Source: Fundidesulfovibrio magnetotacticus
GTDB taxonomy: Bacteria; Desulfobacterota; Desulfovibrionia; Desulfovibrionales; Desulfovibrionaceae
Assembly: GCF_013019105.1 (NCBI RefSeq)
Contig: NZ_BLTE01000018.1
Coordinates: 1 to 64,000 of the forward strand
Direction of reading: 5' to 3'
DNA: 64,000 nt
Shown: piece after piece, positions 46,818 through 48,562 of the stretch
Position numbering within the stretch: the first letter of the stretch is position 1
Layout of the letters: each line of letters begins with the position of its first letter
Notes under the pieces: model-generated
What the model saw: only the letters and a program-made list of their open reading frames with translations
Told to the model about the DNA's origin: nothing
The model's database searches: none
Program-made: the position numbers and the translations under genes

Positions 46818-47546
46818 GTGATCACCCTGCTCACGCCCGAGATCGCCTTTCCCGACCCCGAATCGGCCGGCCCCGACGGACTGCTTGCCGTGGGCGGGGA
46901 CCTGGGCGTCCCGCGCCTGCTCAAGGCCTATTCCGAGGGCATCTTTCCCTGGTACAACGACGAGCACCCCATTCTCTGGTGGTCGCCCGATCCCCGGCCC
47001 GTGCTCCTGCCGCGCAGGCTGCGCCTGGCCCGCCGCCTCCGCCGGTATCTGGGCTCGCACCCCTTCCAGGTGGAGGCCGACCGGGACTTCCAGGCCGTGA
47101 TCAGCGCCTGCGCCGTGGCCGAGCGCCCCGGCCAGGCCGGGACGTGGCTCACCGCGGACATGATCCGCGCCTACGCGCGCCTGCACCACGCCGGGCACGC
47201 CCACTGCGTGGAATGCCGTCTGGACGGACGCCTCGCGGGGGGGATATACGGCGTGGCCGTGGGGCGCGCCTTTTTCGGGGAGTCCATGTTCCACACGTGC
47301 TCCCACGCCTCCAAGGTGGCCTTCGCGCACCTGGTCTGGCATCTGGCGGACCTGGGCTTCCTGTTCATGGACTGCCAGCAGGCCACGCCCCACGTGATGC
47401 GCTTCGGCGCCGTGGAGATTCCCCGGCGCGATTTCACGGCCCTGGTCCGGCGCGCGGCCTCCGTGCGGGCGGAGCCCGGCAAATGGACAACCCCGGCCTG
47501 GTGGAGCGATCCCCCGGCCGTCAAGGAGAGAGCCCGTGCAAGCTGA
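46818..47546 (+). CDS. aat: leucyl/phenylalanyl-tRNA-protein transferase
   Basis: Aat adds Leu or Phe to proteins starting with Lys or Arg, marking them for ClpAP. The 242 residues show GPDGLLAVGGDLGVPRLLKA, YSEGIFPWYNDEHPILWWSP, AHCVECRLDGRLAGGIYGVA and MDCQQATPHVMRFGAVEI. GTG at 46818. Its final codons overlap the start of the candidate selenoprotein, whose ribosome site lies inside this gene. Confidence 0.97.
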   Translation: MITLLTPEIAFPDPESAGPDGLLAVGGDLGVPRLLKAYSEGIFPWYNDEHPILWWSPDPRPVLLPRRLRLARRLRRYLGSHPFQVEADRDFQAVISACAVAERPGQAGTWLTADMIRAYARLHHAGHAHCVECRLDGRLAGGIYGVAVGRAFFGESMFHTCSHASKVAFAHLVWHLADLGFLFMDCQQATPHVMRFGAVEIPRRDFTALVRRAASVRAEPGKWTTPAWWSDPPAVKERARAS

Positions 47547-47766
47547 ACAGATCGTCCTGGACGTTCGCGGCAAGTGTTGAGGGGTGGGCGCGGAGGTCGG
47601 GTGGCACCTCCGGTTCGTCCAGGCCCGCGTGGTTGACGTGTGGGCCAATCCGTCGCAGGCTTCCGTCTTCCGGGAGCTGGCGGCCACGTTCGGGCAGTGG
47701 GCCTTGTCCGAGGAGACCGTGGGCGACGCCCTGCGCCTGCGTTTCGAGCGCAAGGCCCCCGCCTGA
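47536..47766 (+). CDS. candidate selenocysteine-containing TusA-like protein (in-frame TGA)
   Basis: GTG at 47536 has AAGGAG with a 7-nt spacer. The frame runs 14 codons to TGA at 47578-47580, then continues open for 61 codons with the host's high-GC3 codon choice. Reading TGA as Sec gives 76 residues, exactly TusA-sized. The start LDVRGKC-Sec fits the TusA pattern LDxxGxxC, with Sec in place of the catalytic Cys; the usual following Pro is Gly. Predicted order strand-helix-strand-helix-strand-strand (VVDVWANPS, VFRELAATFGQWA, ALRLRFERK) also matches TusA. A 7-bp hairpin 11 nt past the TGA resembles a bacterial SECIS. Known TusA proteins relay sulfur. Alternatives: a real stop followed by a separate 60-residue ORF from GTG 47584, or a pseudogene. 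The Sec reading is inference. Confidence 0.65.
47578..47612 (+). promoter_or_regulatory. candidate bacterial SECIS element with UGA codon
   Basis: After UGA (47578-47580) a perfect 7-bp stem CGGAGGT/ACCTCCG (47591-47597 with 47606-47612) closes an 8-nt loop CGGGTGGC containing GGU. The loop begins about 18 nt past the UGA, within the range where SelB-recognised bacterial SECIS loops lie (16-37 nt), and G-U in the apical loop is the known feature. The region is GC-rich, so hairpins by chance are common. Confidence 0.5.
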
Positions 47767-47776
47767 GGAGGCTTTC

Positions 47777-48562
47777 GTGCGCCTTCCCTGGCTGATTCCG
47801 ATCCTGCTTTTGTCCCTGGCGGCCTTCTCGCCCCTGGCGGGCTGCGACTCCGCGCCCTACACGGAGCGCAGGCAGCTCATCGTCATCCCCGAGAACCAGG
47901 AGCGGGCCATGGGGGCGCGCGCCGCGCGCGACATCCTCCAGACCGAGCGCCAGAGCCGCAACCCCAAGCTCGTCGACGCCGTGACCCGCGCGGGCAAGCG
48001 CATCGCCGCCGTAAGCGGGCGGCCGGACCTGGACTGGGCCTTCCACGTGCTGGAAAACGACACCGTGCCCAACGCCTTCTGCCTGCCCGGCGGGGCCATT
48101 TTCGTCTACACGGGCCTGTTCAAATACGTACAGAACGAGGACCAGCTGGCCACGGTGATGGCCCACGAGGTGGCCCACGCCCTGGCGCGCCACGGCGCGG
48201 AGCGCGCGACCCTGGAGATGGCCACCCAGTTCGGGGCCATGCTCCTGGACATGTTCCTGAGCGAGGAGGACCCGCGCCTGGGCCAGCTTGCCAGCAAGGT
48301 CTGGGGCTACGGGGCCAGCCTGGGCATGATGCTCCCCTACAGCCGCAAGCAGGAGCTGGAGGCCGACGCCATCGGGCTTCGGCTCATGCGGCAGGCGGGT
48401 TACGACATGAACGCCGCGCTGGCCTTCTGGGAGAACATGAAGAAGAACCCCCAGGCCTCGCGGGTGTTCGCCTTCCTCTCCACCCACCCCACCGACGACA
48501 AGCGCATCGAACGCATCCGCGAGGAAATCGCCAGGCTGCGTGAGGATCAGAAACCCTCCTGA
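47777..48562 (+). CDS. M48-family metalloprotease lipoprotein
   Basis: GTG at 47777 with GAGGAGG upstream gives 261 residues. The lipoprotein signal ends in PLAGC. The zinc-protease signature is MAHEVAHALARHG (HExxH) with the third ligand Glu in ELEADAIGLRLM. This matches the LoiP/BepA-like envelope peptidases that degrade misfolded outer-membrane proteins. It lies 10 nt from the candidate selenoprotein, which suggests shared transcription. Confidence 0.93.
   Translation: MRLPWLIPILLLSLAAFSPLAGCDSAPYTERRQLIVIPENQERAMGARAARDILQTERQSRNPKLVDAVTRAGKRIAAVSGRPDLDWAFHVLENDTVPNAFCLPGGAIFVYTGLFKYVQNEDQLATVMAHEVAHALARHGAERATLEMATQFGAMLLDMFLSEEDPRLGQLASKVWGYGASLGMMLPYSRKQELEADAIGLRLMRQAGYDMNAALAFWENMKKNPQASRVFAFLSTHPTDDKRIERIREEIARLREDQKPS

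Follow-up and report, generated by a model that had tools for sequence, protein, structure and literature searches.

The window analysed here is a stretch of 64,000 nucleotides from Fundidesulfovibrio magnetotacticus (contig NZ_BLTE01000018.1, positions 1 to 64,000), in which an earlier note had proposed a TusA-like selenocysteine protein hidden by an in-frame TGA. The gene in question (47536..47766, forward strand) is preceded by an AAGGAG Shine-Dalgarno sequence (47523..47528, +), read from the sequence, which lies 7 nt ahead of a GTG start at 47536. The reading frame then runs through 14 codons, a TGA at 47578-47580 and 61 further codons to a terminal TGA at 47764-47766. All these elements were found where the earlier note had placed them, and the high GC3 that it claimed past the in-frame TGA was computed as 0.93. 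Similar sites of GGAG type also stand ahead of the start in the other Fundidesulfovibrio copies. With UGA read as selenocysteine (Sec) at codon 15, the product would be a protein of 76 aa, VQAEQIVLDVRGKC-U-GVGAEVGWHLRFVQARVVDVWANPSQASVFRELAATFGQWALSEETVGDALRLRFERKAPA, whose N-terminal region reads LDVRGKC-U-GVG. The codons TGT TGA (47575..47580, +) would thereby specify a vicinal thiol/selenol pair, Cys14-Sec15, at the position of the TusA active site. Two neighbours that are not part of the system flank the gene. Upstream, an aat-like ORF (46818..47546, +), whose name, leucyl/phenylalanyl-tRNA transferase, is taken from the earlier note, overlaps the start of the putative selenoprotein gene by 11 nt. 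Downstream lies an ORF for an M48-type zinc metalloprotease lipoprotein (47777..48562, +), with a HEVAH-type motif in its translation.

A candidate bacterial SECIS hairpin (47591..47612, +) follows the UGA, its stem formed by 47591-47598 and 47605-47612 and its loop, GGGTGG, by 47599-47604; the inner stem pair 47598/47605 is a C-C mismatch in the F. magnetotacticus copy. Published rules for such elements (bSECIS) ask for a spacing of 16-37 nt, a loop of 3-9 nt, a stem of 4-16 bp, a G within the first two loop positions and a minimum free energy (MFE) of -7.5 kcal/mol or lower (PMC13188914). Here 18 nt separate the UGA from the loop, which is 6 nt long and begins with GG; the stem has 6-8 bp and the MFE is -12.4 kcal/mol. 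The folding z-score of the single sequence was modest (-1.2 to -2.1, with -2.05 for the hairpin alone against shuffles), which left the hairpin unconvincing by itself and called for a comparison across species; an Rfam scan of the hairpin region returned no SECIS family up to E 5. Across 50 distinct sequences, 85.8% of the stem cells are paired, against 35-63% when the stem is slid. In the same sequences 27 cells are altered on both sides in a compensatory manner, and the covariation score is 0.215. Neither value was reached in any of 500 shuffles (0/500), a result that is not a probability since the shuffle keeps the relatedness of the sequences. The clearest covarying pair, 47596/47607 (A-U in 23 sequences, G-C in 17 and G-U in 8), connects position 1 of a Val/Ile codon with position 3 of a His/Tyr codon. 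Codon usage in the hairpin is also skewed: CTC is the Leu codon in 47/55 cases, compared to 44/322 elsewhere in the same genes, and similar skews are seen for GAG (49/49) and for ATA (18/23 Ile). Within Fundidesulfovibrio, 22 of 252 codon comparisons differ in the hairpin region, defined as the 12 codons that follow the UGA, and all of these differences are synonymous, compared to 658 of 966 downstream. The earlier note had seen a hairpin with GGU in its loop at SECIS distance, and this observation held up: GGGTGG contains GGU, the published ranges enclose the values found and the pairs covary. While the fold of the single sequence is modest, its conservation places the observation above chance.

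We then considered how far the gene is conserved. When the read-through protein was compared with 59 relatives, matches were obtained in 33 genomes, with an in-frame TGA in 33/33, and among the 30 homologues that were extracted the TGA occupies the same codon in every case (30/30). The alignment of these 30 sequences, used as profile A1, matched 168 of 348 Desulfovibrionales genomes, about half of the sample. At least 161 of the 168 matching genomes carry the in-frame UGA, nearly always at codon 15; this figure adds 11 separately confirmed genomes to 150 among the matches listed, all of which have the in-frame TGA. The remaining seven comprise two with the Cys paralogue alone and five outside the matches listed. 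Among the 150 listed matches, a few also show a terminal TGA and one shows an extra TAA. In a sample of 395 genomes of the phylum, the six profile matches all fell within Desulfovibrionales and none in another sampled order, hence the gene seems confined to that order. A DNA-pattern scan of named genomes returned 45 records, all from Desulfovibrionales or from MAGs labelled Proteobacteria or Deltaproteobacteria, and including Pseudodesulfovibrio, Solidesulfovibrio, Nitratidesulfovibrio, Humidesulfovibrio and Fundidesulfovibrio agrisoli; because the pattern itself includes the hairpin, these records were excluded as evidence of hairpin conservation. No variation is seen at Asp9, Cys14 or the UGA among the 30 aligned sequences, and the family motif is LDxRxxC-U-GxG, with Cys14 nearly invariant across the family. 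Conservation extends for about 60 codons beyond the UGA, in the coding frame and up to its end. In seven Fundidesulfovibrio copies, the in-frame share of synonymous codon changes after the hairpin is 0.38, as opposed to 0.12 and 0.08 for the two other frames, which also contain stops. Homology thus flanks the UGA on both sides and the homologues do not stop there, in agreement with the read-through that the earlier note had put forward.

The profile also retrieved a second family (VxCGLVPAI...LLDY) which has Cys at the Sec column. Aligned with hhalign against A1, this family proved homologous over the whole length (prob 98.8, E 6e-17). In a tree, the Sec and Cys families formed one clade each, with support 98/99, and no Cys orthologue was seen within the Sec clade. 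Residue 15, for which U or C had been anticipated among homologues, is therefore Sec in the homologues and Cys in a sister family. Unlike the Sec family, this separate clade has no UGA and no shared neighbourhood was seen for it; one of its genes immediately follows what was read by eye as mnmE, and neighbourhoods are otherwise variable. Its members (matched regions L066, L067, L068, L069, L070, L165, L167 and L170-L179) have about 85 aa and a predicted TusA fold, with a C-terminal LNLLxY/LDxLDY tail in most of them. The predicted model of the Cys family also matches TusA best, and a Pfam scan of two of its members gave no match.

The selA, selB, selC and selD genes that the earlier note had wished to see checked are all present in the genome that contains the window (G000): SelA (587.6 bits) and SelB (367 bits) are encoded on one contig, SelD (329 bits) has its own in-frame UGA (1 TGA), and tRNA-Sec scored 79 bits. 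Two other readings of the in-frame TGA were weighed. It could be an ordinary stop that closes a 14-codon leader, with a separate 60-aa gene starting from GTG 47584. A GTG is indeed found there, but homologues often have a non-start codon at this place, the second one past the TGA (GTC, GTT, CTT, CTG, ATT, ATA and others), which argues against a separate downstream gene. Moreover, no ribosome site fits between the TGA and GTG 47584, and the residues ahead of the TGA, with Asp9 and Cys14 invariant, form the first strand in the predicted fold. We regard this two-gene arrangement as highly improbable. The same holds for a decoding of UGA as Trp or Cys by leaky read-through or a change of code. Such a decoding would likewise fit an in-frame UGA and continued conservation past it; however, the Sec machinery is complete, a covarying hairpin stands at SECIS distance, TGA ends genes normally elsewhere and the aligned residue in the paralogues is Cys. 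The set contained just two complete genomes in which SelB and tRNA-Sec were not clear (G012 and G014), and neither has the gene. Judged from the sequence comparisons, that is from the conserved UGA, the covarying hairpin, the Sec machinery and the Cys sister family, 47536-47766 is almost certainly a real selenoprotein gene with UGA codon 15 decoded as Sec, and the selenoprotein that the earlier note suspected behind the in-frame TGA stands.

An AlphaFold2 model of the product (pLDDT 90.7) predicts a single domain of order beta-alpha-beta-alpha-beta-beta, with strands at residues 5-9, 32-37, 55-62 and 65-72 and helices at 17-27 and 39-51. The best structural matches by Z were the SirA-like protein 3hz7 (Z 10.3, rmsd 1.8, 69 aligned), YeeD (9.8) and TusA (9.2). 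Smr and Alba domains followed at 8.6 and 8.3; the fold type is thus a common one, and fold alone gives no function. Foldseek E-values were weak (best 7e-3), which is no surprise with a domain of this size. On the basis of this model, a TusA/SirA fold is very likely for the 76-residue protein. From the aligned ranges (model from residue 3, TusA from residue 7, an offset of +4 at the N-terminal end), we infer that Sec15 pairs with TusA Cys19. In sequence comparisons, neither the read-through product nor the 30 homologues showed a match to PF01206 or to any Pfam or NCBIfam model above chance, a PDB sequence search with the profile gave matches at chance level only, and the direct hhalign comparison of the profile with TusA was not significant (prob 5). 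The Cys sister family reached prob 46 against TusA in a profile-profile comparison. The proposed link to TusA comes from the predicted fold, with a weak contribution from the Cys sister family.

In the 30-sequence alignment CPxP is absent, with C-U-G-x-G instead, whereas TusA proteins of Desulfovibrionales retain it. E. coli TusA has conserved Asp45 and Asp51 (PMC2854127); their equivalents are not conserved in the same alignment, the columns after strand 2 being variable. By the usual criteria the protein is not a TusA family member. The TusA-like character claimed in the earlier note is therefore retained in part. The protein resembles TusA/SirA proteins (PF01206; E. coli TusA 3lvj, D. hafniense 3hz7, YeeD) in its size, its LDxxG-like N-terminus, its predicted fold and the position of its nucleophile, where Sec would replace Cys19. 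It departs from them by the extra Cys before the nucleophile, by Sec instead of Cys and by the lack of CPxP, of the conserved Asp45/Asp51 and of a Pfam match. Because the almost invariant Cys ahead of Sec makes a C-U pair that is absent from TusA, a sulfur carrier is a role that we infer. YedF (TIGR03527), a SirA-domain protein, shares the TusA-type fold and a link to selenium. It consists of a TusA domain with CPxP and a DsrE domain (PMC5322559), the latter C-terminal, unlike the single 76-aa domain with Sec described here, and YedF itself is not listed as a selenoprotein in the inventories compared. About 1.5 kb beyond the end of the window (G000:C18:65453-65647, L001), a long open frame encodes a TusA-domain protein with CPQP, which is probably YedF.

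The aat and M48 genes to which the earlier note had drawn attention do flank the gene in the window, but this setting is peculiar to Fundidesulfovibrio. Because it is specific to the genus it should not guide function, and we rejected it as functional context since the neighbourhood differs in other genera. There, the usual locus runs in the order nitroreductase, MBL-fold hydrolase, selenoprotein gene, FMN reductase-like protein and comF, and continues past comF with rplU, rpmA, obgE and proB (the first four flanking genes were named from Pfam, while the ribosomal genes, obgE and proB were read from translations). The FMN reductase-like neighbour has invariant Cys at positions 49, 52, 55 and 67, a pattern that resembles the CX2CX2CX5-7C motif described for iron-sulfur flavoproteins (PMC3164229). 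In many genomes the MBL hydrolase, the flavoprotein and comF stand together without the selenoprotein gene. The hydrolase and the flavoprotein thus do not require the selenoprotein, and the gene is an optional, movable insert at this conserved locus. A strict functional link to the iron-sulfur flavoprotein was considered and dropped, as the test for co-occurrence did not bear it out. In G000, an MBL hydrolase - iron-sulfur flavoprotein - comF arrangement without the selenoprotein gene is found at G000:C26:3832-5922 (L186), and several other genomes with this locus have no copy of the selenoprotein gene anywhere. The selenoprotein gene occurs at independent sites (next to aat, at the MBL-flavoprotein locus and elsewhere in the Solidesulfovibrio-like G030), which speaks for its being an independent gene.

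The family was compared with published inventories. The list of May 2026 holds 119 prokaryotic selenoprotein families or subfamilies, and none of these 119 entries is TusA/SirA-like (PMC13188914). The adjacent Cys-Sec and the combination of UGA and bSECIS are shared with the C-U selenoproteins KCU-star/DUF466, SaoC, SaoL, HgcA and others, which are listed under other domain families than TusA/SirA (PMC13188914). Older counts for D. vulgaris give SelD, three FdhA, a DsrE-like protein, GlpC, a HesB-like protein and FrhA (PMC1794560), and deep-Sep, tested on Salidesulfovibrio onnuriiensis, reported no TusA-fold selenoprotein family (PMC12013277). NCBIfam (June 2026) and Pfam contain no model for the Sec family, and no TusA- or SirA-like selenoprotein is described in the open-access literature searched. 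The family therefore appears to be an uncatalogued one, new in the sense of being absent from the selenoprotein lists compared. Standard annotation would see a 14-codon fragment of the 76-residue gene and, the Cys relatives being distant and unnamed, searches based on Cys/Sec pairs could miss the Sec family. It reaches Nitratidesulfovibrio, to which the model sulfate reducer once named Desulfovibrio vulgaris belongs, and published selenoprotein counts for Desulfovibrionales are probably one too low.

With respect to function, the ribosome would start at GTG 47536 and read the UGA at 47578-47580 as Sec by means of SelB, Sec-tRNA and the downstream hairpin. This would yield a single-domain protein of TusA/SirA fold, with Sec15 where TusA has its sulfur-carrying Cys19, and it may serve as a small, soluble carrier, either in redox reactions or for sulfane sulfur. 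As a Cys-Sec pair occupies the position at which sulfur is accepted, and does so with hardly any exception, a carrier is suggested in which Sec takes up sulfane sulfur or another oxidant and Cys14 resolves the product. The attack by the Sec selenolate would be directed at sulfane sulfur, in persulfide or polysulfide form, or at another oxidant. Cys14 would then resolve the adduct, so that the sulfur departs as sulfide and a selenylsulfide between Cys and Sec remains. This bond would be reduced again by a reductase of the cell, possibly by the iron-sulfur flavoprotein (4Fe-4S/FMN) that is adjacent in most genera. We consider the explanation as a whole, a selenoprotein gene encoding a TusA-fold Cys-Sec redox or sulfane-sulfur carrier, to be probable, while the particular chemistry of Sec attack and Cys14 resolution is put forward tentatively, on our analysis of the conserved pair.

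Two other functions were weighed against this carrier. The protein might be a true TusA-type sulfurtransferase, with a desulfurase loading sulfur or selenium on Sec15, from which it would pass, for instance, to tRNA modification, cofactor synthesis or SelD. The predicted fold and the position of Sec match TusA Cys19, the residue to which IscS passes sulfur (PMC2854127), and the gene ahead of one Cys paralogue, if it is mnmE as read by eye, belongs to tRNA modification. However, without CPxP, the conserved Asp positions and significant similarity to TusA, a plain TusA-type transfer is less likely; in addition, the genome already has its own PF01206 proteins and no desulfurase, selD or tRNA-thiolation gene is among the recurrent neighbours. 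We regard such a transferase as unlikely. The C-U-G centre might instead belong to a pure thiol/selenol redox protein, such as a peroxide or disulfide reductase, fed by the neighbouring flavoprotein, and we hold this possible but doubtful. C-U-G is nearly invariant, and the usual locus, with the MBL hydrolase and the FMN/4Fe-4S flavoprotein as flanks and the nitroreductase upstream, would suit a redox function. GCUG is the Sec active-site motif of thioredoxin reductase (TrxR) (PMC8914392); as in that enzyme, a vicinal Cys-Sec is followed by Gly and a selenylsulfide could form in principle. Unlike in TrxR, C-U-G lies close to the N-terminal end of a domain with TusA fold, which is not thioredoxin-like; there is no homology to TrxR, and the neighbours persist without the selenoprotein. 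If the carrier reading is extended, the family could be the first in which Sec serves to carry sulfane sulfur (or selenium), in proteins of TusA fold special to Desulfovibrionales, with a selenopersulfide on Sec and release by the neighbouring Cys; we make this suggestion as speculation. If true, sulfate reducers would handle sulfide or sulfur with an additional step that depends on selenium. With Sec at the sulfur-carrier position of a TusA fold, the use of selenium for carrying or releasing sulfane sulfur becomes directly testable.

Several copies deviate from the common form. In Nitratidesulfovibrio-type copies (L097, L100, L113 and L120), a Pro/Gly-rich C-terminal extension of 30-45 residues ends in GGxHTGGxGKE. 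Another copy (L152, G291:C1:1705621-1705842) contains a further stop, TAA, in frame downstream of the UGA, reflecting either decay of this copy or a sequencing error. Finally, in a divergent copy (L168, G223:C13:34054-34260) Gly replaces the Cys ahead of Sec (NIGUGLGL), which provides a natural test of whether this Cys is needed.
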